Assembly: GCA_031213475.1 (NCBI GenBank)
Contig: JARUPZ010000003.1
Coordinates: 12,901,580 to 12,965,579 of the forward strand
Direction of reading: 5' to 3'
Source of the DNA: Nereocystis luetkeana
Lineage: Eukaryota > Sar > Phaeophyceae > Laminariales > Laminariaceae
Length of the DNA: 64,000 nucleotides
Every line of letters begins with the position of its first letter. The stretch's first letter is position 1. Below are positions 11,187 through 38,577 of the stretch, one piece after another. The notes under the pieces are model-generated. The model was given only the letters and a program-made list of their open reading frames with translations. It was not told the DNA's origin and did no database searches. The position numbers were made by a program, and so were the translations under genes.

Positions 11187-14100
11187 ATGTCATCCACCCT
11201 GTTTCACAGGTCCGCGAACCTTAGCAGCGTTATCGCCCGAGGAGAGCAGCGAGAAATGATCGCCCCCGGGACGACGCACGGAAGCAATGACGAAGTGCAA
11301 CCCGAGGAAAGTACCTCCTCCCGACCAGCAGCAGCAAGAGCAGTTGAAGACAAAGCCGTTACGATGTCGAAACGAGTCAAGACGGCCGACTTCTCCGCCT
11401 CCGGCGCCGCCCCCACCCCCGCCCGCCAGGCCAACTCCCGGGTCTACGCCCCCCGTTCACCCCTCCTGCACACCCTACCCCCAGTCCCGGAAACGCCTTA
11501 CTCGGCTGCGGCAGCGGCGGCGGCGGCATCGGCGATGTGGCGAGAACGCGCCCCTTCCCCTGCCCCATCCACCGCCTCCTCGTCCGCATATTCGGCGGCA
11601 ACAACTTCCGCGTCCTCCATGTCTTCCTTCTCGCGAACGTCCTTGTCTTCGTCCCGGTCTCGTACCTCCGGGACCCACGGGGCCTACGGGCGGCGTGGCA
11701 AGGGTACCAGAGGTTCTTTTGACAGGCCTTACTCCGGTTCCACCGGTCGGGTTTCCGTGCCTGGTGGGGGCGGGAGTGGTTCGGGCTGTTTCCCGCCTCC
11801 GCCTTCGCGGTGGGGTCGGGGCGGGGGTGGCGATGGGATCTCTTGGCGTCGACGCGTGGCAGGGAGGAGGGAGCGAAGCCTCGGGCGAGAAAGTGGGCGC
11901 GAGCGCGAGCGTGGGGTTGAGCTGGAGAGGAGGAGCGAGCGGCGGGAAAAGGAATGCCGCCGACGGCCGAGGAAAGATTACGCTAGCGAGGCCGGTGTTG
12001 CTCTTGACGGCGGGGGGTGTTGCAGCAGCAGTTGTGGCGGTGGTGGCAGGGGTGGAAGGTACAGCAGTAGGAAGAGGAGCAGGAGCTGCAGCAGAGAGAG
12101 GGGTTCCTCGCGGGTGACGAGAACCGCTCCCGGGGAAACGAAATGCAAGCGGTGTTTGGAGTGGTGCCGCGTCAGCCGCGAGAGGAAGCCGATCCCTCGC
12201 ACGCTTCCGGTAAGAGCCAACTGTCTACTTGGTTAACTGCCGAGTGTACTGCGGTAGCCAACCCGCCTCACTTTCCAAAGTATTGACTGATTGGTTTTGC
12301 AGCACGTCGGTCCAAGTATCGCAAGCCAGGTTAATGTGCATTGATCTATTCGTGGCATGCTGCGGTCTATCTGTGCTGTGGACACGCTGAAACACAATTA
12401 CTTGGTGAGAAAAACGCTCTTTTATCCAGGTACGCTCGCTCTACCCTGGGTTACAACAGTCTCTCGACGTTTACTTTCCAAACGTCCTTAACTGTTAACT
12501 TAGCGTTTGGCGGCCTTGTGTAAGGAAGAGTCAAGTGTTCGTAGGAGTTTTGTAGTCCCACACGGAGTCCGTGCCATCGCAGGCAATGGAGCCGTTTTTT
12601 TCTACCCGCGTATGTTCCGCACGAAGCGAAGCTAAGAAGTTGGGTTGCACACTTCTCGTTTGGGGGCAGGTTGTCGTGGCGACTACTCGTACCCAACATT
12701 TGCTTATTTGCATCATGAACTAGGACGAGGAAAAGTTGAGAGGTTTTATTTTCCCTTCTGCCTGGCAGAGCAGTGGTGGTCCCTCTGTGTGTAGTGCCGG
12801 TATGGTATGCGCCAGCCGACACCACCTGCACTAAAGCGGTAACCGGTAGTACTCCGCACACTACCGCACTGCTTGGCCAAGCGAAATCACAGGCACTATG
12901 GCAAGCAACCGAGACCTCTACTGCTGTCTGTACGCACCACTCCGCCCGGGAATATAATCCCCTTTCGTTACCAAATGAGGGTCCAAAGAGGGATTATATT
13001 CCCGGACAGTGGTACCAGGTACACGTTTTCCTGTTGAACGTGGATCGTCTTGCGAGGAGTTTGAAAACCTCAATCCTTTGAGGTGTGCTCTTGATATTAT
13101 TACTGTTTTGCATGCAATGTTGCTCTCCAATGTTGCTTCTATTGAATGCGAGCATTTGTAGTGGTCGTCCTCTGCCCCGTACTTACTGTCTACTTGCGGG
13201 GTAATTCCAAAGCGCGCATGCGGCCCATTGTGCTGTGACTATAAATGTAGTCTGTAGTCTGGTGACATGTACTGTCATATGGACCGCCTTTGTCGGCTGG
13301 GCTGTTTACGCCTCTGCAGGCTATCAGTGAATGCTGCCTCTTCGGCTTTGTCGGTTGGGCTTTTGTGTACCACTGCGTTTGGTAAACGTACTGACAATGA
13401 GTGTTGACGGATTGAGAACCGCAGTCCCGTTGTCGGACGAAACGCTCAAATTCGGAGTAGTTTGTCCCCAACACGAGGCTGCCGTCCTAGAAGGGTTCAC
13501 CCAGTAGCTTCTGCTTTGTGTTGTATCACAGTACGTTCATAACAGTAGTGAGTGTTGGCCCATTGAGTTTTTGCTCCATGTACGTACGAACAGAGTGTTG
13601 ATCCATGTCTTGTATTGCGTCTTGTAGTGACAGCAGTGAGTGTTGACCCATTCGAGCGTTCGTTGGCCCCAGGGTTTCCCCTCCATATTTTTTTCAGCTT
13701 GACCCCCGCCCCGTCCTCACCCTGTGTTTCTTGAATGTGCTATTAATAGTCGCCTGCTGTTCTGTGCTTCTCCTGCATCGTCATATAACTTGGCACCGTC
13801 CTCCCCCTGTGCTACTCGATTGTGCTGGTCATCTGCTGTCCTGCTTCCTCCCTCAGATGGATTATTGGGTGCGCACCGCTGGGTGCAAACAGGCGAAGTC
13901 GAAACACATCGAGTACATCGACAATGCTACGTACTCGCGAGAGCAGGTGCGTTCCGTTCAGTTTGGTGTGGTGTAATATCACGGGGGACCATAGTTGATA
14001 GCACCAAATAGTGTTGGTAAAAATGGTTAAATAGAGTACCTGGTAGGTTTTTATCTATACCATAGGTCCTATTAACTTTGGTCCCCCGTAATAGTGTATG

Positions 14101-24304: not shown

Positions 24305-25367
24305 TCAGCCGTTAGCGGGGAATTCTCGGACGCTTTTGACCTCCGGAAGGCTCTCCAGCGCCGCTATGATCGCCTCCCGTTCCTTGAGCTGCTCCCACGC
24401 CGCGCACGGGGGGGGGGGGGAAGAGAAGAGGAGAAACAGTGTTGAGCGTTAGTTTTCGGTGGGAGGCAGCAGCGCGGAGCGTTAGGAGCCAGCGTCAGCG
24501 AAGGGTGGGGCGTTCAGAAGCCTCGGTCTGATCGAATGGTGGATTTCATACGAGCACTAATCGTGGTGCGTGGCTTGAAACATAAAAGCGCTTTGTCGTC
24601 GCCGAACGCTACGGGTACGCAAGCGGAGGCCGCGACGCGCAAGGAAGGGCAAGGGCGAAAGATAAACGAAACACGGAGTGACGCCCGTCAGTCCGCCATG
24701 CAACTCCACCTGCGACACGAGCACCGAGTAGCCCACCCTCTCCCGACCGCCTCTCTCCCACGACGGAAAACGCCGAAAAAACAGAAGGGACCCCTCCCCG
24801 ACCCCCCCCCCGACCCCCCCTCCCCTCCCCTCGCCTCTCTCTTCCGACAGGAAACGCCACCAAACAAAACAGCGGACGCCCCCCCCCCTCCCCCCTCTTC
24901 CTGCTCCGTCACGAAAGGGATGCGTGGTCAATGGTCAAAATATTAAGGCAAGCAACAAATGAGTACGCCCCCCGCCCCCCCCCCCCCCCGGCCACCCCCC
25001 CCCTCTCCCCTCCCGGACTCACCACGGCCCCAGCCACTAAGAACTCCATGACGGCCGACCCGGTGTGTCCCCTCAGCCCGTACTGCTCCAGCCTCGCCCC
25101 GCCCCGGCCGCCCCCACCCCCGGCCCCGTCCCCACCCGGCGTCCCATCCACCGCCCCGCTTCCGGAGGTTCTCGCGTCGTGTCCCTTCTGACCCTTGCAG
25201 AGGGCGCGTATGCGGTCCACCAGCCTGTGCAGCAGCCCCTCCTGGTCGAGGGCCTCGACGCGTAAGACCACGGCCATGTCCGGACGGCCGCCGATGTCGC
25301 CGCCGTAGGAGGCCGGAGGCTTCTTCTCCACCTGCACCAGCATGTGCTTGCCTTGCATCAGCTCCAC
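24305..25367 (-). other. Last two exons of the kinase gene: ACT-like regulatory module
   Basis: Exon 25367-25023 (115 codons) and exon 24388-24305 (27 codons plus TGA) are phase 0 at both joins and follow RPSASDIVRQ of the kinase in phase. They read VELMQGKHMLVQVEKKPP, then RPDMAVVLRVEALDQEGLLH, a Gly-rich linker, YGLRGHTGSAVMEFLVAGAV and LKEREAIIAALESLPEVKSV. A first strand with D-x-x-G-L-L, a helix, a middle hairpin, a second helix and a final V-x-S-V strand is the ACT fold pattern (small-molecule, often amino-acid, binding). Membership of the kinase gene is inferred from strand, spacing and phase. Alternatively it could be the end of a separate gene, but no upstream exon of such a gene is visible. 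Confidence 0.5.
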
Positions 25368-28300
25368 CTGTATTTACGGCGGTGGGGTGGGGTGGGAAGG
25401 GGTGGGGGTGATGAGGATGGGGGGTAGGGCATCGGGGAGCGGGGGGGGGGGGGCGGGAGCTTGTACTCGATATTATGCATGGCCGTGGTCGTATGACCGT
25501 AGCCACTCGCATCCCCGCAATGCCGGGACGGAGCACGTCGGGTTTTCCCCGACCAGGCAAGACATTGCTTTTGCACCCAAGCGCGCAGCGCCGTGAGGTG
25601 TTCGGCGAGTCGGACAAAGGGTGAGCTGCATCCTACTGACAACCGCTTTTGAGGCGGATTTTCTTGCAAGTGGATGACAGCTTCAACGAGTTGATTTATT
25701 TTCCGGTGTGGCCACTTCTAGAGACAGCAATGGGGGCACTACTGTATGTTACTGCCTCGTGGGTGCCTTGCCGTAAACACTACGTGATACGATCACTATC
25801 CCCTTCGGCGCGGTAAAGGTTCTCCACCTCGCACAAATGATCTGACTTGATCGCCAGCTGTGACCGACCGCTAAAAAAAAGGAAAAAACGAAGGTAACCT
25901 GGTTGTCTAGCTCACGTGGAGAGCGGCATGGTTTACAGTGTCGTTGCAAACCGACGCCAACCCAACCTACCTAAAATATACGAGGCGTTCTACGATAGAG
26001 GTTTTTACGCTAATTTTTCTGAAGCTCCTCACTTGAGCTCCAAACCTCACCCGAAAGCTGACTCCAGCAAAAATCAAATTGCATCCCGATGAATAAAATA
26101 CCAAGGCCAAAGTGTACAAAAAAAAACATTTTTCGAAACGATATTGGCATTCCGACGTTTTCGGGCTAAGGAGCCCCGTCATTCGGAAAACATTTTAACG
26201 GAAACGTGCTACCTCTATCGTAGAACGCGTCATATAGGGGGGGGGGGCAGGGGGGAGAGGGTTTAGAGGGTTTACAAACAACGAGGCGCGACGGGACCGC
26301 GAGGTACAAGTGGTGGGGGACCGAGCGCGGGGGGCATGGGGGCAGACACCCCTCTGTACGGAAACGTCAGGCAACGTTAACCGATCAATAGGAATCCAAG
26401 CGCATGGACCTGCAGAGGTTCTTCAAGGCCTCCTGGCCCTTCGGAGGGTCCCAAAACCAAAACCCCTGACCCCCCTCCTCCCTTCCCCTCCCCCCAAAAA
26501 ATCTAAGAAAACCAAAAACATAAACGACAAACGACACAAAACACTCGAAATATATATATATTATATATATATATATTCATATTACACCTATCGAATGATA
26601 CCGGCTGCCGACGGGCGAACAGCGCTCTGCAGCATGGACCTACAGAGGTTCTCCGTGCCCTTTTTGACCCTCGGGGGATTCCTACACGTAACCAAAAACC
26701 ACTTGAGCCCAATCAACCTCCTGCGGAAAAAAGCAAAAATTAGAAAGAAAAAAAAACGCCCACCCACAACGAAAACGCCAGAGCACCGAAGAAAGGAAAA
26801 ACAAAATATACCCCGTTGGTAAACTAGGCAACGAGAAAAAAAAAAACGTAAAAAAACACCCAACACCAACACCACCAACAACCCAACAACAGCAACAACA
26901 ACGAACACTATTATTACGGGGGACCATAGTTAATAGGACCAAATGTTGTTAGTAAAAACGGTTAAATATATAGGTTTTTATGTACACCATAGGTCCTATT
27001 AACTATGGCCCCCCGTAATGTAATACATGAGGAAACGAAATCATGACAAGAAGGAGGAAGAAAAACACACCTGTCGGGCATTAAAAAAAGGAAAAAAAAG
27101 GGAGAAAAAATGGGGAAAAACACCTAGCTAGACTAGGGCAAGCGAAAAAAAATACCGGTAATCGTAAGAAAGTCAAACAAATACAAATTTAGAAGAAAAA
27201 AAACAACAACTACATAAAAACAAGAAAAAAAAAATATTGAAAAATATTGAAAAAAGACGAACTACAGTATTACGGGGGAACATAGTTAATAGGACCAAAT
27301 ATTGTTAGTAAAATGGTGAAATATATAGGTATTTATGTATACCATAGGTCCTATTAACTATGGTCCCCCGTAATAGTATAAATACCTGTCGAACGATATC
27401 GGATGCCGACGGCCGCCACCCCGGACCTTTGTTGAAGCATGGACCTGCAGAGGTTCTTCATGGCCTCCTGGCCCTTCGGCGGGCCCCACACGTCTCCCGC
27501 GGGGAACACGAGGCGGTGGGCGTTCGTGAGGACGACGGTGCGCTCCATCTTGGTGCCAAAAGAAGGGTGACACATCTCGAAGAGGAGCATGCCCAGGGAA
27601 TACACATCCGTTTTTTCGTCGTACCTTGAGAGGCGTATGCGTGTAGGGGGGGGGGGGGGGGGGGGGCGCGTGGGAAGGGTGCATGGTTAGGGTGGGTCGG
27701 ATGGGTGGAGAGAGGATGGAAGGGCGGGCGGGGGGGGGGGGGGGGGGGGGGGGGGGGTGAGTAGGTGGCGGAGTGGGAGGGAGAGAGAGGGGGAAGGGGA
27801 GGGAGGGGGGGGGAAGGGCAACAGCAAAATTTGGCGTGAAAAAAACAAAAAACAAGAATAGCCCCAGCCCCAGCCCCAGCCCCAGCACTAGCACCACCAC
27901 CAGCACCATCATCACCATCGATACCAACACCATCAACACTAGTCCCCCTTCCTTCTCCCTCCCCAACACCTCCTCCACCACACCTCCCCACCCCACCACC
28001 ATCAAACAACGTAGCTCACCCTTGGCCGCTCATCTGCTCCGGGCTCGCATACAGGTATGTCCCCACCCCCCCCGTAATCGAGGCATCGTCGCCGCTCGCA
28101 CCGCCTCCCAGGTGGTCAGACTCCCACGTAAAAGACGCACGGTGGCGACCCTTAGAAGGCGACCGAGCGGATGCTGCCGCTGCTGCTGCTGCTGCTGCTT
28201 CTGCTGCTGTGGCGGCGGTTGCCCCTCCGTTTATACCGTCGGCTGGGAGGATGTGTCTCGACAACCGAAGTCCTGTCATTGATAGGATAAATCAAGGACG

Positions 28301-30978
28301 GGCCGTGGCGGCGGAGACAGGGGCGGGGGCGGGTGGAGGGTGTGGGGGAGCAGAGGGGATGGGGTGGGGCCAGCGACGGGACATAGTTTTCGCAGTACAG
28401 TAGACAGGGGGGGGGGGGGGGGCGGCGCCAGCAACAGCGGTGGTGGCTAAGAAAAGCGGGACACAGTTTTCGTAGTAGCCAGGTGGCGGCGGGGAGGGGG
28501 GGGAGGGTTGAGGGTGAGCAGGAGCCAGCGGCATCGGCAGCTGCTAAGAACGGGATACAGCTTCCATACTCGTAGTAGCCAGATGGCAGGGGGCGAGCGG
28601 GCGGGCGGCGGGCGGGCGGACGGGGGGAGGTGGGACCAGCTGGACAGCAGTACCGTGACCCTGACCGTAACCCTCCGAAGCCTTCTGGANNNNNNNNNNN
28701 NNNNNNNNNNNNNNNNNNNNNNNNNNNNNNNNNNNNNNNNNNNNNNNNNNNNNNNNNNNNNNNNNNNNNNNNNNNNNNNNNNNNNNNNNGTGTTATCTTT
28801 TGGCGTTTTTCCAAGCCCTGTTCACTGTTCCCCCCCCCCCCCCCCCCAACCAAAAAAACAATTCATTCATTTTTTCTAAATTAATAAATTCCTTGCTTAA
28901 AAATAGTTTTCTTTTCGTTTTACCAGCACACAGCCCTTGGCGGTAAAAATTGTAAATTTGTGTGTGATGTAAATTTGGAAAAAAAAAAAAAAAAAAAAAC
29001 GGTGGGCAGGGCTTTGTGCACATCTCCCCGGTGGTCTATATTGGTTACCCCTCGAATGCTCCTATTGATAGAGGGTATTTACGTGAGTTCAAATCGCACC
29101 GTGATGGTAATTTATTGATTTACAGAAACAAAAACTAAAACTAAAACTAAAAACAACCAACTGCTCAGAGCGCATAACATCGTGGGCACAGGCGCAATGC
29201 GACGCCAGTCAACGAGGGAAGGGAGTCCTTCTCGCGGTGAAAACGCAAGGCACGGGTCGTAGCGGGGAGGGGGGGGAGTTACGACTACTGTATTACTAGG
29301 AGGGAGAAAGAAAGACGGGCGAAGGCAACGAAATGGCAAGAAGAAGCAGAAAAAAAAGTAAAAAAAAACAGTACAACATACACAGGAAGGCGCGGCGGAG
29401 CAATAGCGGCATGTAGGAATACGCACCCCTATCTTGACGGTGCCGTCAGCCATGAGGAAGCAATTGGCCGGCTTCAAGTCTCGGTGAATCAGCCCGCACG
29501 CGTTGACGTACTGCAGGCCCTTGGCGACCTGCATGAAGATGTGCATCACCTGAGAGGGTGGGAACAACCAACACACATACGATAAATAGGCACGGGACGG
29601 ACAATCGTGGAACGAACGAAAGAAATCAGGAAGCGAACAAACGACAACAAATGAAAACGAACACACGGGCGAACGGATAAACGAACGAACTAACGAACGA
29701 ACGAAATCATGGAACCAAAGAACGAAAACATGGAACACACGAACGAACGAAATATACTAAGCGAGCGGGCGACACCATGAAAACGGATCGAACGAACGCA
29801 AGCATGGCACGCCGAACGAAAGCATAAACGAAATCACCGACAGACAAACGATGAGTGTCATGGAACGCCCAACGTGCCCGCCCCGCGCCGCCGCCGCCGC
29901 CGCCGCCGTATTAGACCTATCTGCCAACAACAACAAAAAACAGTGTACGCACACCTTACACCCAACAACGCGTGGGCCACAATTTTTTCGTATCCAGCTG
30001 ACCCATGGATGACACGAACACTATCGCGTCACATCCACCTACCAATCGCCTACCCACCTAACTCACCCGCGCATCAAGCCCACTACCCACCTAACCACAC
30101 CGCCCACCAATCTCCCTACCCACCCTTCTACCCTTCTACCCCACCCACCCTTATCAATTGCCCCGTGATTCTGGTTCTAGCCCCACCCTCCCCCTATTTT
30201 TTATAGGTTGGGTTGGCGTCGGTTGGCAACGACACTGTAAAACATGCCGTTCACTTACGTGAGCTAGACAACCAGGGTTCCGTTTTTTTTTTTTTTTTTT
30301 TTGGCGGTCGCCCACAACTGGTTGTCGAGTTAGATCATTGTGCGAGGTAAAGAACCTTATACTCCCCACAATTGGGAATAATTGTATCACGTAGTGTTCA
30401 AGGTACGCATCCAAGAGCAGTTACATAGTACTCCCATTGCTGTCTCTGGAAATGCCTACACCGGAAATTAAATCAACTCATTGAAGCTGTCGTCCATATG
30501 CAAGTCCGCCTCAGAAGCGGTTCTTAGTACGATGCAGCTCACCCTTCATGCAACCCACCAGACCACCTCACGGCGCTTCGCGCTTGGTGCAAAGCAAGTC
30601 TGCCTGGTCGGTGAAACCCGACATGCTCCGTCCCGGCATTGTAGGGATGCGAGGGTCTATGGTCATACGACTACGGCCATGCATGATATCGAGTGCATCT
30701 CTCCTATCGAGTACCCCCCCCCCCCCCCACCACACACAAACCAGTCAAATTCCCAGTAGTTTGTCCCCAAAACGGGGTTGCGGTCCTAAAAGGGTTAAAG
30801 GCCCGATTGCCCCGTGATCTGGTTCTAGCCCCCCCCCCCCCCCTCAGCACATTCACGACGCGAGCCGAAGTAAGACGGTAAACCTGTGCAGGCTTCCGGA
30901 CGGTGGCACACAGACCGACCGCTTGCCCTATTGGCGAAACCCAGCACGTAGCATGGTGCTCAATGCCCGCCACACAGC

Positions 30979-31016
<38 letters not shown>

Positions 31017-33560
31017 AAACGTTCGGACAAGATAATGAGGCCGTCGCGACGTTGTCTACCCAATACAACTCTCTCCATTTATTCACCTTCATCTCGTCTT
31101 CCCCCCCCCCCGCCCCCCCAACAAAAAAAAAAAAACTCCCCAACCCCTGCCTCTCTCCGCCCACCTGGGACATGTCGACGCGGGATTGGCTCGGCGCTCC
31201 GGATTCTCTTCCAGGAAATACTGCAGGTTGTTGTGGGAGCAGTACTGCATTTGGATGTACAGCCATAGGTCGTAAACCTCCCTCGATCGCCCGCGGCTGC
31301 CGCCTGCCCTCCTGCTCTTCCTGTTCTGCCCCCACGCCCCTTTCCAAAACGACTTTTGCGAGCGCCCCCGGCGGCTGGAAACCCCGCAGCGGGGTGTTTC
31401 TGCTGCATGTGCACGCGCGGCGGTGGCGCGCCGCGCCCGCGGCCCCTCCTCCCGTCCATCACGTCACTGTGGTCAAAAGAGGGCGACCTCCTCCCGCCCC
31501 CCGCCCCCGTCGCTGCCGCCGCGCCAACGCCGGGGGTAGTACCAGCAGCGGCGACGTTTAGCGGCCAGCTCTGCCCCCTCGGTCGATTATTACCGTCGAC
31601 GTCAACCCGCCCCCCCTTGACCCCCGCTGCTGCCCCCGCTCCAGCCTCAGCTGTTGCTGCTAACGCCTCCGCCGCTTCCGCAGCCGCCGCGGCATCCGCT
31701 GTAGCTTTCCCCTCGCCTTCGGATTTATGGAAAACCCGTTCTCTGTTCCGGCGGGCTGTGGGGCGTTCGAGTCGGCTACCTGGCACTGATGCAGCTGCAG
31801 CTGCTGCTGTTGGAGACGACAGCGGAGACTCTCCTAACAATGTTTCGTCGCGGTCACCGTCATGATCGTCGTCGTCGTCGTCGTCAGTTCTGGCCGTCGC
31901 GACTGCGTGGTGGTGTCCGTTCATAACGTGGCCGCTGCTGCTCCCCGGCGGCAACGGCTTCGCCCTGTCCCAGCTAAAGCTGTCATCGTCGTGATTGCTG
32001 CCGGCTCCTCGCCCGTCGTCGCTATCGCTGCCCGAGTCCTCCTCCTCCTCCTTCTCCTCCTCCACCTCCTTCTCCTTTTCATCCCCCGCTCCTTCCTCAG
32101 CCTCATTGACCCCCTTCCGCTCCCGCTCCCCCTCCCCCCGGCGGCGTTCCTCCGCCGAGCCATCCAGGCGAGATGAAGCGAAACCTCTACCACCACCACC
32201 CCCTCCCAGTCCGCTGGGCCCTTCCCGTCCTACCTCTCCCCTCCCTCTATATCCACCGTGCTTCTCCGACTGAAGAGTGCACGAGTTGCCCACATCCCCT
32301 CTGCTCTCGCTGCAGCCTCCCGCGCAAGAGCTAGCAGGGGCCGTGGCTGTAGTGCTGGTGGGATCGGAAGATTGCCGCTCCCCCGTTTCGCTGCAGCCCG
32401 GCTTGAGCATGCTGCCGCCACTGCTACCCCCGTTGCCGCCGCTGCTGTTGCCACCGACATCGCCGCCGCCACTAACGCTACTGCTACCGCTCCCCCTGCT
32501 GTGACCGTGCCCATCCCTGCCCGGATCGCCGCCAGACTCGTCGGTAAGCCGTTGTCGGCGGCGGCGGTGGCGGCCGTGCTCATCATCCCCCATTTCCTCC
32601 TCTACTCTAGTACTACCCCCCTTTCCCCCTCCCTTCTCCCCCTGCCGCTCCTCCTCCTCCTGCTCCTCCTCCTCCTCCTCCTCCCCCTCTCGGTCGAACA
32701 CGAAGCCCGGCATGCTCGCCTCTTCCTCCTCGTCCTCCTCCTCCCCATCCTCCTCATCGTCATCTTCACCACCCCCTTGGTAATAGTCGAACCCCCCCCA
32801 CGCCCGCCCCCACCTTGCCCCACTCCCACCCCGACCCCCAACCCCCCGCCCCCCCGCCCCGCCCCCACCACCGCCGCCTCGATCGTCCGCGTTACGGCTG
32901 TCTACGGACCACCCATCCACGCTGTGGTCCTCACAAAGAGGCCGGGCAACCTTGGAAGGGTACACGGATGGCGATAAAGGCCAGCTAGGGAAATGGGAAG
33001 AAGACCCACCCCCGAACATTACTTCCTCTTCTTCTTCACCGATATCACCACCGCCGCGCGTCATCGATGCCGCGCCCCCGCCCCCACCCGCCGACAATAG
33101 TGGCATACGGGGGGAGGTCCTCCCGCTGCCCCCGCTTCCGCCCCCGCCGCCTCCTCGAAACCCCGCGAAATCGTAAGGGCTGTTTCTGTTATTGGCGGGG
33201 GCCGTGGTGTTGGTGGTGCCGGTGTGGTGGATGGGGCCCGTACGGGACTCCCCCCCCGTGGTGACGTCCCAGCTGTCGCTTACGGCGGAGGGGGCGCACT
33301 CCTCTCGGAGAAGAAGCTCCTCGTCCTCCTCCGTGAATTTCTCGAGCCACGCCTGAGCGGAGGGGGGGGGGTAGGGTGAGGGTGAGAGGGTTTAGGGGGT
33401 TTGAGGTTCGGGTTGGGGGGAGGAAGGGGGGTTTGGGTTCTGGGGGTTTCGTTCCGTGCTTGGTGCTGTGGGTTGCGTTCGGTTTTATGCTCGTGCTCGT
33501 AATTGTGACGGGGTTAGGTTTTAGGCGAGCGAGCCAGCACGCAAGCAAACAAGTGAGCAA

Positions 33561-33667: not shown

Positions 33668-36600
33668 CAAGCAGGCGGTGTCGACGTATTAGAAAAGGAC
33701 CCCACGACAACGGATGAACCAAGTCATCCGCACCCCCTCAGGCGAAAACACACAAAAATGTCATCGGCGTTCAATCGCCCTCAAACGCCCCCCCCGGCCC
33801 CAACCTCCTCACCCCCCCAACCCCACGCCCCCCACCCTTCTCAGTCGCGCGCACCTGGTAGTAGCGAACGATATTGGGATGATCCAGCAGCGACATGATC
33901 TTGACTTCTCGGAGCACCTTCGCCAGCTGTGGCTGCCACCGCCGGTCCGAAGACAGCCTGATCTTCTTGATGGCGTAGTCGTGCCCGTCCAGGCGGTTGC
34001 GGCACTTGAACACCGTCCCGAACCCCCCCTTCCCCAGCTTCTGCCCCTCCACGAACTCCGTGCGCAGGCGTCGGTTGGTAACCAGCAGCGCGTCGGTGTT
34101 CTCGGCGCCGTCCGCACCGTCCCCACCCCCCGCCCCCGCGATGTCCCCGCCTCCACCCCCGTCCAAAACCAGCTCTTCCGCCGCCGCGCACAGGGGCGCG
34201 CGTGGGCTCCGACTAGGCCTCCGATCCCTCCCCATCTCCCTCTCCCGCTCCTTTTCCTGATCCAACCGGCTGTCTCCGTCTCCGTCCGACCGGTTCGCGC
34301 GGCGGTCCGACATCGCTAACGCTGCTGAACCGCTGCCCATGTCTCGAGACCCTCGCCGAGAGTGCCCCCGCGGTTTGCTCCGCCATCGGCTATCAGACTC
34401 GGATGACTTCGACCCTCGCACAGCGACGGCTAAATCCGCAGCTGCAGCAGCAGCAGCAGCAACCGCAGCCGCCTCCGCCGCTGCGGATGCCGTTGCCTCC
34501 GCCGTCGCCGATGTTGCCGTGCGGGTAGCAGAAGAAGCGTCGCGGCCGCCGCGCGGCGCGTCTTCGTCTTCGTCCTCGACGCCCCCCCCGCCTGACGACG
34601 CCGACACCGAGTTCCCCGAGGCCGCAGAGCGCGAACGCGGGGACTGGTTGTCGACCGTCCCCCCTACCTTCGCTGCCACGGCCTGCGAGGCGCCGCTCGT
34701 CGGCGAATACCTATTGTGGACCCTTACACCGGAGCCGCCACCGCCGCTGCCACCGCTACTACTTCTGCTGTTATTTTTGTTGATGTTGCCGACGTTTGCA
34801 CCGCCACCAGAGCCCACTCGTTCTGGGACAGGGTCCAGCGGCGGCGGCACCTGCTTGTCGCCGGCGTCACCCTGCCCGCACACCTCGCTTGCGGACCAGT
34901 TGAAGCAGCCGAGGGGGTCATCATCGCCCGAAGAGGAGGAGACGTTGCTGCTGCCGCCACCGCTGCAGCCCAAAGGACGTGCCCCGTCGACGGCGGCCGT
35001 CACGGCGCGTTCGAGCCTGCCCGTCCCCAAGCCGTCCGCGCTGCCGCCGACACCGCCATCACCACCACCACCATCACCGACGCCACCGGCGCCACTGACG
35101 GCGGCGGCACCTCCCCCCGCGCGCGCGAAGAGAGCCTGCCAGCCTTCCCGGTGCCCCCGCCGGTCACCGTGGGCGGGGGAGTAGGACTGGTGAAGGGCAG
35201 GCAGCGAATGCACGCGCTGCATCGGGGTCTCCCGCATGGAGGAGGCACCTGCGCCGGCTCCGACGGCGGTGGGCCGCCGCTGGAGAGTCTCCACGGTCGG
35301 GGAGGACGCTCCGAGCGAGTTCCTGCCACCTCCTTGCGCGGCCTCCCACGCGCGGGATCCGTTGAACGCGGGAAATTCGGTCGCCCCGTACTGGAGAGAA
35401 AGGGAGGAGGTTAGCATGGGAGGGGATGCCCGCCCGGGCGTCGCTGTCTCCAACAGGAGCGCCGCGTCTCCCCACCGGCCGTGGGTGGCAGCGCCGGCGT
35501 CTGCTTCATCGGCAATGCCGGCAGAGCCGCCACCGCGACTCGCGTCCTGCCGCGCGCCGACGCTACCCCGGCGAGCGATCGTCGACATGTTCAGCATGGC
35601 CTCCGCTCCGTACTTGTAGGCCATGTACGCCACCCCGGCGACGATGACGGACACGAGCCCGACCAGAGCGGCGAAGGCCCGCCACGTCATGAAGAGGCCC
35701 CCCTTCGTATCCGTGGGGACCTCGGCCCTCGCCTTCCCCTGCCCTTCTATAATGTCCTTCTCCACGCTCTCCAGCAGGGCCTGCTGCCAGTTCCCGATGC
35801 CCATGGTCGTGGGGCCCCCGTTGATGCCGCCGCCCGCGCCGCTCACCGTTCCGCCCTTGACCGCCCCGGGCTTCGCCCCGCCGGGTCGGCCGCCCACGGC
35901 GGCCCACGGCCCCGCACTATCGTCTACTGGCCGTGCGGCGTGCGTCGGAAACTTGACAGGGGACGCCAGAGACCAGCCCCAGTCCAGGACAATGTCACCA
36001 TCGCCTCTGTCGCCGCCCCCACCACCGCCCCCGCCCCCGCCGCCTCCACCGCCCATCATCGCGTCCCCGACCCCCCCCCGAGCATCCCTTCCTGCGGCGT
36101 CTACGGAGGGCCGACGGCTGGCCATGCCCATGGGATGCAGGGGATGGGGGTACCGATCTTGCGGGTCCTCGCCAACGGCGTGGAGGGGAACTCTCCTCAG
36201 TGGCGAGGAGACGAAAAGGTGGCTGTTCAGGAGGCGGAGTTGGAGCTGGGGCTGTCTCTGGCCCAGGCCCGACTGCAGGAGGCCGCTGTTTTTGCCGGTC
36301 CGACCGGAAGTCGTCGCGGTGGCAGCCACCAGCGCGGTCCCCGGGTCCTCCGGGTCTACGATCGACCACGGGCAATCGTCTCCCGCGGGAGCGTTGGACT
36401 CGTCGTCGACCGAACACCCTGGGTCTACTCTCTCGCTGCAGCTGCCGCCACCACCGCCACTGCTGCTGCTGCCACCACCGCCACTGCTGCTGCCGCTGCT
36501 GGCATCGCCAGTACCGGTGCCGCCCATACCGCCCCCCACTCCATCCCTGCCAGCGCCGCTGGATTCGTCGGGCCGGCACAAGCTATCGTCCGCAGGGGCG

Positions 36601-38577
36601 GCAGCGGCGGCAGCATCGTCGTCGTCCTCGGAAGGATCATACCCACCATCGTCATCGCCATCACCGTTGGTCAACAACAGCAGGGACTCCTCGCGGCCGC
36701 CAGAGACCCAGTCCAACGCTCCGCCGTCGCCATCCAACCGCCAGCCAACAGAGGGAGAGTGCTGCTGGGACATCAGGGGCGTCGAGGAGGAGGGGGAGCC
36801 GTAGTAGTACCCCGGCGGCGGATGAAGCATGGACATCGGGGGCGGCATGATGTCTACCCACTCCCGGCCCCGGATGCCGTACAGGGACACCGCGAGGGCC
36901 GGCATCTGCCTGCGCCAAAGCACGCTGCCGTCCATGGGGTCCATCGCCACCACGTACTCGTCGTTCTCGTACAGCAGGTACGGGAACCGATCGGTGTGTT
37001 CCACCCCAAACTTCCCTCTGCGTCTGGTCTTCTGCCCGCTTCCCCCTCCCTCCCCCTCCCCCCACTCCTCCCCTCCTCCGCCCCCCCCAACACGCCCCCC
37101 CGGAACCCCGCTGGCCCCCACCTCTCCATCCACCCAACTATCTCCGATATCTCTGGCATCCCCCCAGTCATCGCTGTGCAACTCGTCGAAATCATCTCTT
37201 TCCATCGGTCGCGGCAACGCCTGGACTCGATAGCTTTCGTCACCGCTGCTGCCTGAACGCGCGAGGACCGCCCTGGTGTAGCCCTCGCGGTCCGTGGCGG
37301 CTACCTTGGCGCGCGTGAGTGCGGTCGCCCCGCCCCGCCCCTCCAGGTCGAGGGCGCTGAAGTGCGCAACCGTGACGAACCACAGCTCCTCGGAGGTTTC
37401 TGCGTCCAAGGCACGGACGACGTACTCGTCGCGCTGAAGCAGGAGGTTGCTGTTCGGCTGCTGCTGCTGCTGCTGCTGCTGCCGCCGCTGCTGCGAGTCT
37501 CTCCCCTCCTTCCAGGACTCGTCCTCTCCCGCCCAATCACGGTCGTTGCGGAGGGCGTCGTCGGAAATCACGTCATCCTCTCCGTCTCCACCGCCATCGC
37601 CACCGCCGCCGCCGGCTTCGCCAGCTTTCCGGGCAGGCCTGCTCTGGACACCTCCGCCGACGCGTCGAGCCGTGCCCGTCTCCGTGTCGAGCGAGAAGAG
37701 CTCGGTCGTCTTCTCGCCGATCAAGAGGCCGCAGCTCTCGTCCTCCACGATTCCATCCGAGTCCGCGTCGACCGCGAGGCACGCCATCCTCGGCTCCAGC
37801 ACGAGATCCGGCGCCGACGTCGTCAGCACGCTCAGCCGCCCGTCATCCCCGAGCGAGTAGATGACGCCGTCGAGGCCAGGTACCACCGCGCCCCCACCGA
37901 GCGCGTTCCGGCGGCGTCGACGGCTCGGCCCCCGCCCCCCCCCCCGCGTCGCCACCGCCGCCCTCGCCACTGGTTTCCGCGTCCTTGCTGTCGTCCGTCC
38001 CGCCACCACCCCTACCACCACCACCACCACCACCCCAACCACCATCGTCGTCGTCGACTATCGTGGTCGTGCTCGAGGAGACGAGGGGGCCGCCAGAGTC
38101 TACGTAGACCCCTCGCACGTTGCCACTCCAGGCGTCGAGGGTGTGGACGTGGCCGTCTACGGTGACGGCGACTACGGCGTGGTCCTCCTCCCCCTTCTCA
38201 CGCCACCGACGCGCTTGCTCCTGCTGCTGCTGCTGCTGCTGCTCCTGTTGTTGCTGCCGCGGTGCCTCTCGGCTCGAGCTCGGGCTCGACCCCGCCGCTC
38301 CTGCGCCCGGCACCACCATCGCTACCATACCCGCCACTACGAGCAGGGACACCAGGAGCCTCGGGGAGACCGATGCACCCCCGCGCGATGTGCTGCCGCT
38401 ACGTGTGCCGCTACGCGAACCGCTAGGCGAGTCGCCAATGTATGTTACGCTACTTCTACGACTACTACTATGTATACTGTTGCTGCTGCTGTGACTGCTG
38501 GTGCTGCGGTTGCTGCTGTGGTTTTCCCATCCTGGTGCGCTTGTCTTTTCCGCGTGCTTCCCTCGGCGCCAGCGCAT
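24305..38577 (-). CDS. PERK-type eIF2-alpha kinase with luminal, transmembrane, kinase and C-terminal ACT-like parts
   Basis: Exons in transcript order: 38577-33855, 33352-31165, 29549-29427, 28272-28020, 27624-27386, 25367-25023, 24388-24305. From ATG 38577: a Ser-rich start; hydrophobic segment SPRLLVSLLVVAGMVAMVVP (residues about 71-90, signal or anchor); IRE1/PERK-like luminal repeats (VDGHVHTLDAWSGN, GLDGVIYSLGDDGRLSVL, YVVAMDPMDGSVLWRRQMP); transmembrane helix AFAALVGLVSVIVAGVAYMA (near 35640); then the kinase: LGKGGFGTVF, YAIKKI, LREVKIMSLLDHPNIVRYY, a roughly 670-residue acidic insert, LYIQMQYCSHNNLQYFLEE, LIHRDLKPANCF, DFG, VGTYLYASPEQ, YDEKTDVYSLGMLLFEM, RPSASDIVRQ. YIQMQ, SPEQ, the long insert and FGTKMER are eIF2-alpha kinase hallmarks; there is no RNase domain, so it is PERK-like rather than IRE1. 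Expected role: ER stress sensing and translation arrest. At least five single-base frame breaks are present, so pseudogene status or sequence errors are possible. The intron 29426-28273 contains a 100-N gap. Confidence 0.85.
25450..25972 (+). repeat. Dispersed repeat (ATGCATGG type), long copy
   Basis: About 520 bp beginning after a poly-G run with ATTATGCATGGCCGTGGTCG, continuing through GCCGGGACGGAGCACGTCGG and ending CCCAACCTACC. An inverted copy lies at 30204-30715. It carries no open frame of note and sits in the kinase intron just upstream of exon 25367-25023. Confidence 0.75.
25977..26236. mobile_element. MITE family 3, about 258 bp
   Basis: Terminal inverted repeats GCGTTCTACGATAGAGG at the left and CCTCTATCGTAGAACGC at the right enclose an AT-rich body with no coding capacity. 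It lies in a kinase intron and starts where a long ATGCATGG-type repeat copy ends. Confidence 0.7.
26398..26455 (-). pseudogene. Second, shorter duplicate of the same kinase exon
   Basis: About 55 bases match the region encoding the GPPKGQEAMKNLCRSM segment of the kinase exon at 27624-27386, but the reading frame is broken. It lies in the same intron as the copy at 26588-26685, giving three copies in tandem over 1.2 kb. Confidence 0.55.
26588..26685 (-). pseudogene. Partial duplicate of the kinase exon 27624-27386
   Basis: The minus strand reads ENLCRSMLQSAVRPSAAGII, closely matching the 3' part of the kinase exon (NLCRSMLQ...RPSA.DI). It ends at a GT in the same position as the genuine exon, but the codon before it is TAG instead of CAG. 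It lies in the intron 27385-25368. Either a decayed tandem copy or an alternative terminal exon; unlike the main copy it has no frame break between SMLQ and RPSA. Confidence 0.6.
26913..27019. mobile_element. MITE family 1, copy b
   Basis: 107 bp with about 27-bp inverted ends starting ATTACGGGGG and an AT-rich centre (TTGTTAGTAAAAACGG, TATAGGTTTTTATG). It lies in the kinase intron, between the exon duplicates. Confidence 0.85.
27269..27374. mobile_element. MITE family 1, copy c
   Basis: 106 bp, nearly identical to the copy at 26913. Its end lies only 11 bases past the exon edge at 27386, hence inside the kinase intron beside the splice donor. Flanking TA dinucleotides suggest a TA target duplication. 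Confidence 0.85.
28690..28789. other. Assembly gap of exactly 100 N
   Basis: A run of 100 N, the usual placeholder for a gap of unknown size, lies in the kinase intron 29426-28273. It is flanked by G-rich and C-rich low-complexity sequence. A small exon could be missing here. Confidence 0.99.
30204..30715 (-). repeat. Dispersed repeat (ATGCATGG type), inverted long copy
   Basis: Reverse-complement partner of 25450-25972 over nearly its whole length: GGTTGGGTTGGCG at one end, GTGAGCTAGACAACC, ATTGCTGTCTCTGGAA, and GGCCATGCATGATATCGAGT at the other. It lies in the kinase intron 31164-29550. Confidence 0.75.
30748..30797. mobile_element. MITE family 2, half copy
   Basis: One arm only: TAGTTTGTCCCCAAAACGGG followed by GTCCTAAAAGGGTTA. 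It lies in a kinase intron next to the long ATGCATGG-type repeat. Confidence 0.6.
33533..33668. repeat. AAGC tetranucleotide tract in the first kinase intron
   Basis: Nearly perfect GCAA units with two short interruptions, in the intron 33854-33353. Confidence 0.9.

Follow-up and report, generated by a model that had tools for sequence, protein, structure and literature searches.

The window, i.e. the whole stretch of 64,000 nucleotides analysed, hosts on the minus strand the exons of a protein kinase gene and, past a 2-kb interval, two short exons, called here the tail. Listed in the order of transcription, the relevant features are:

33855..38057, minus strand: large 5' exon, with an open frame of 1401 codons that comprises the N-terminal region, a candidate membrane span and the kinase N-lobe to HPNIVRYYQ
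31165..33352, minus strand: exon of a long acidic/glycine-rich insert, 770-aa open frame, bounds taken from the sequence
29427..29549, minus strand: exon of the catalytic loop (HRDLKPANCFL)
28020..28272, minus strand: exon of the DFG motif and activation loop, with a single frame break within DFG
27386..27624, minus strand: exon of subdomains IX-XI, ending with RPSASDIVRQ followed by gt, with a single frame break near 27413-27423
26632-26683 and 26402-26453, minus strand: incomplete copies of the terminal part of the last kinase exon (repeat family D2), within the intron
25367-25023, minus strand: tail exon A, open over 345 nt (115 codons); it encodes ACT-like strand 1, a helix 1 containing DQEGLL, the glycine-rich loop, and strands 2 and 3
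24388-24305, minus strand: tail exon B, 27 codons plus stop, open; ACT-like helix 2 and strand 4 (LKEREAIIAALESLPEVKSVREF), then the stop codon

A frame overlapping the large 5' exon matches Pfam Pkinase (E 7e-15), and eIF2AK1 and eIF2AK3 are the top PDB matches of this exon among the best 60 of 293. The exon pieces of the catalytic part were joined by hand and used as query against PDB. The top match was eIF2AK3/PERK (E 1.5e-29), followed by eIF2AK1, GCN2 and PKR (best 60 of 703 matches). The gene had been assigned in the earlier note to the eIF2-alpha kinases and the assignment holds, the product being by homology a PERK-like (eIF2AK3-type) kinase with the catalytic domain of eIF2-alpha kinases. 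PERK-type kinases work as dimers and phosphorylate eIF2-alpha; kinases of this kind respond to an overloaded endoplasmic reticulum by slowing protein synthesis.

The likeness to PERK/eIF2AK3 (PEK family) includes the catalytic core, a hydrophobic span N-terminal to the kinase and a long insert in the N-lobe. Unlike PERK, the present kinase would carry a C-terminal ACT-like tail, and it has a long acidic/glycine-rich insert, longer than that of human PERK, the exon of which leads into kinase subdomain V (LYIQMQYCSHNNLQYFL). By Kyte-Doolittle scan only, hydrophobic stretches were located at residues 794-813 and 1-23 of the 1401-codon frame. The former is a candidate membrane span preceding the kinase, which begins at about residue 1336. 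By eye the lumenal part looks PERK-like; the lumenal PERK structure is absent among the matches listed for the large 5' exon (best 60 of 293 in PDB). The gene may in fact start upstream of this frame, or elsewhere.

Several irregularities mark the assembled gene. The reading frame of the insert exon changes near 31270-31290, possibly because of a frame shift or an unseen intron; single breaks occur in DFG and near 27413-27423; 100 Ns fill positions 28690-28789, and fragments of the last kinase exon are repeated twice in the following intron. All this could mean that the locus is misassembled, or is a kinase copy in decay, the join of kinase and tail not being a working gene. Such an explanation is quite improbable, as 1401 and about 687 codons are still open in the large exons, and, of the breaks, those in DFG and in subdomain XI fall at short G runs, which are common sites of sequencing errors. 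Moreover, of the 17 matches obtained by searching the genome with the kinase, 3 correspond to the present locus, and the remaining 14, none better than 1.3e-12, are weaker and taken as other kinases, so that the locus appears to be the only PERK-like copy found in the genome. The frame breaks are taken as probable assembly errors, because a total of about 2088 codons is open in the two large exons.

Exon A is directly preceded by ...TAAATACAG and directly followed by GTGAGT, and the sequence directly 5' of exon B is ...GGGAGCAG. Both junctions of the tail feature GT-AG sites and are in phase 0/0. The two open exons and their junctions are as proposed in the earlier note, and the DQEGLL and LESLPEVKSV tracts to which it drew attention are both encoded by them. 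The phase match to the kinase end RPSASDIVRQ, also claimed, stands in part. The motif is in the matching frame, but the preceding residues (...KNLCRSMLQQ) lie in a different frame of the assembly. Because the assembled kinase has frame breaks, the match is limited to the last kinase codons, unless the breaks are assembly errors.

A codon log-odds model, for which the two large exons of this gene served as training set, was used to compare the six frames. The claimed frame ranks first of six in both tail exons, with values of 0.70 for exon A (0.58 without the glycine-rich loop) and 0.26 for exon B; two conserved kinase exons scored for comparison gave 0.28 and 0.39. The tail had 2 matches in the 465-Mb genome, both being the tail itself, hence a single copy was found.

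The resemblance of the tail to ACT domains was assessed at different levels. The top Pfam match of the intact tail is ACT_4, the ACT family of RelA/SpoT type, but the match (E 0.088, 13.9 bits) covers profile positions 7-28 only, and is nearly equalled by the next one, Lambda_CIII (E 0.1). Once the glycine-rich loop was cut by hand, ACT_4 was again the top match (E 0.012, 16.7 bits), at positions 7-79 of 80. Both scores are far under the 27-bit cut-off of the family. No family was identified by scanning the tail against NCBIfam, nothing useful by scanning it against PHROGs, and no relatives among 16 pattern stretches by scanning IMG/VR. In a phmmer search against PDB the tail had 7 matches at E ≤ 1, none of which is an ACT domain, those listed being largely of low complexity. 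BLASTP did not align the tail core to the ACT domain of E. coli RelA. The ACT_4 profile was also run against the N. luetkeana genome. The 2 matches at E ≤ 1 (19.9 and 19.6 bits) both score above the tail; neither exceeds the cut-off and neither is the tail. The scan is uninformative on the fusion, because a six-frame search reads each exon separately, and the tail is divided between two. The one of 19.9 bits, a weak ACT_4 match, lies at C16:10365333-10365515 (L003, G000), in a sequence which we take to resemble a DUF493/YbeD-type domain.

A profile of the ACT domains of RSH proteins was built from 36 sequences, i.e. the ACT segments yielded by 32 of 39 bacterial loci and 4 others. Used as a plain HMM, it gave 9.6 bits with the tail core and 7.1 bits with the intact tail. 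For each set 20,000 shuffles were made, and these values were equalled by 1 of the 18,071 and 1 of the 10,030 shuffles, respectively, that HMMER scored. The match consists mostly of VVLRVEALDQEGLL. The C-terminal half alone does no better than shuffles (5310 of the 15,412 scored reach at least its score). Among 1567 frames of the window (≥25 aa, frames with ≥5 X excluded) an unrelated one at 14054 beats the tail, 10.5 vs 6.0 bits.

The same profile was aligned to the tail by hhalign. The alignment spans 75 columns (score 26.5) with the intact tail, and 71 columns (score 33.5) with the loop-cut tail; none of 200 shuffles (best 15.3) and none of 300 (best 19.1), respectively, reached these scores. 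It crosses the exon junction without a gap, passing from strand 3, encoded by exon A, to helix 2, encoded by exon B. Similarity to the ACT_4/RSH type thus extends over the full domain (71-75 columns), beyond what shuffles yield by chance. The control was made on 932 frames of the window of ≥45 aa, each trimmed to 600 residues. One of these, again the unrelated 14054 frame, ties with the spliced tail, scoring 27.2 over 19 columns; apart from it, only the frame of exon A itself (27.0) scores above the spliced tail. The 14054 frame, 80 aa long and on the minus strand, carries HLLSRVRSIVDVLDVFRL and scores like the tail against the C-termini of RSH ACT domains. It was considered as an ACT C-terminus and discarded as a chance match, its neighbours having been inspected by eye.

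Exon A alone was modelled by AlphaFold2, with no alignment. Strands were predicted at residues 9-16, 31-39, 92-101 and 104-112, and a helix at 45-59. The order is the expected beta-alpha-beta-beta, with one extra strand in front, at low confidence (mean pLDDT 53.7). Foldseek found 392 matches to the model at E ≤ 10, and none at E ≤ 0.001. The helix and strand of exon B come from the hhalign alignment only, and DQEGLL supplies the glycine at the turn between strand 1 and helix 1. The strand-helix-hairpin array foreseen in the earlier note is therefore seen in exon A, but at low confidence and with no significant fold match, and the ACT pattern it had described is backed by the top Pfam match, the profile alignment and the order of strands and helices, but falls under the Pfam cut-off.

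The tail might be a true C-terminal extension of the kinase and yet not an ACT domain, adopting some other small alpha/beta fold or being partly disordered. The likeness of VEALDQEGLL to ACT domains would then be due to chance, as scores below threshold, the low-confidence model of exon A, the signal lost by the plain HMM in the C-terminal half and the equal score of one unrelated frame of the window could suggest. This alternative is rather unlikely, since the profile alignment spans the whole domain over two exons, with none of 300 shuffles coming near, and the order of strands and helices fits ACT. An ACT-like fold is likely, and is the best-supported reading of the tail, because ACT_4 is the top Pfam match, the profile alignment runs across both exons and the strand and helix order is fitting. 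The tail shares with the C-terminal ACT of RSH proteins (ACT_4, PF13291) the whole-domain profile alignment, the C-terminal position, a VEALDxxxLL-like strand 1/helix 1 and a helix 2 followed by a valine-rich strand 4. It differs from it in having a glycine-rich loop of about 35 residues and a score under the family cut-off.

Kinase and tail are separated by a 2-kb intron that contains repeats and duplicated fragments of the kinase exon. The GTATTT donor of the kinase exon is weak, as judged by eye. Scored on the kinase profile, the kinase end gives 42.3 bits with the tail, 43.6 when the donor is read through, and 42.7 with neither; the profile does not discriminate between splicing to the tail, read-through and termination. 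The idea of a last kinase helix completed by tail residues finds no support in these values, and was dropped.

Exons A and B could alternatively make up a separate small ACT-like gene that follows the kinase on the minus strand, or be 3' exons of another transcript. The repeat-bearing 2-kb gap would agree with this, as would an in-frame ATG at 25358 (codon 4 of exon A) and a stop located just upstream of the acceptor. However, the AG acceptor preceding exon A is in phase with the kinase end, and the list of frames in the intron shows no further likely exon beyond the duplicated kinase fragments. Furthermore, none of the 6 RelA_SpoT synthetase matches found in the genome (on C27, C2, C19 and C15) is on C3, the contig of the window; consequently the tail does not terminate any recognised RSH gene nearby, and its context differs in this from that of an RSH gene. 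A separate gene is on the whole unlikely. We infer that kinase and tail belong to one transcript, because they lie on the same strand and at a suitable distance, the tail exons are the next likely coding exons, phase is 0 after DIVRQ, and coding statistics are similar. The fusion of an ACT domain to an eIF2-alpha kinase, the core of the earlier note, fits these data, but has to be set against the repeat-rich 2-kb intron and the frame breaks of the assembled kinase.

On balance, the locus is best viewed as a gene for a PERK-like, putatively transmembrane kinase, the last two exons of which add a C-terminal ACT-like domain. This domain would be ordered beta-alpha-beta-beta-alpha-beta, helix 1 being separated from strand 2 by a glycine-rich insertion. 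The lumenal part would sense stress in the endoplasmic reticulum and drive dimerisation, and the cytosolic kinase would phosphorylate eIF2-alpha. The ACT-like tail would pair with the partner tail in the dimer and tune kinase activity, possibly binding an amino acid or a ligand of similar kind at the glycine of the strand 1/helix 1 turn (DQEGLL). Dimerisation is common among ACT domains, as is the binding of amino acids at the turn between strand 1 and helix 1. The kinase would hence have in the tail a module for dimerisation and possibly also for metabolite sensing. A more demanding version, in which the bound amino acid or related metabolite gates dimerisation or activity, lumenal stress and cytosolic metabolites being integrated, is conceivable but doubtful.

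What mainly distinguishes the eIF2-alpha kinases from one another is the sensor joined to a common kinase core. The plant kinases STY8/17/46 also have an ACT domain, N-terminal to the kinase; they belong to a different kinase family, and are not known to have a part in the lumen of the endoplasmic reticulum. Among the open-licence PMC articles listed for ACT domains with eIF2-alpha kinases or with kinases of these algae, no title or abstract opening hints at an ACT domain on an eIF2-alpha kinase, and no such fusion appeared, within the same limits, among those listed for PERK/eIF2 kinases in brown algae and stramenopiles (in one case 8 of 37). The kinase is known, the type of domain is known, and their combination, if real, is new. 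If a PERK-like kinase did bear an ACT-like module as its second sensor, this would be a new combination of sensors, and a metabolite input into the signalling of endoplasmic reticulum stress would become directly testable within one protein.

The repeats of the locus are of different types. The D2 elements match part of the last kinase exon, near its end. Taking the 26402-26453 unit as reference, the copy in the kinase exon (27437-27488) is 94% alike, that at 26632 is 73% alike. The 26632-26683 unit runs to the homologous end, where an in-frame stop replaces the last codon before the donor of the main copy. These fragments may be what is left of a duplicated exon, or may provide the kinase with another end. 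A palindromic repeat resembling a mobile element is found in two copies (26894-27028 and 27250-27383), 86-88% alike and with ends like ATTACGGGGGACCATAGTTAATAGGACC, one of which begins about 11 bases past the kinase donor. Finally, two introns of the kinase gene host an inverted pair of repeats of about 500 bases (25462-25978 and 30195-30697), the arms of which are 71-90% complementary.
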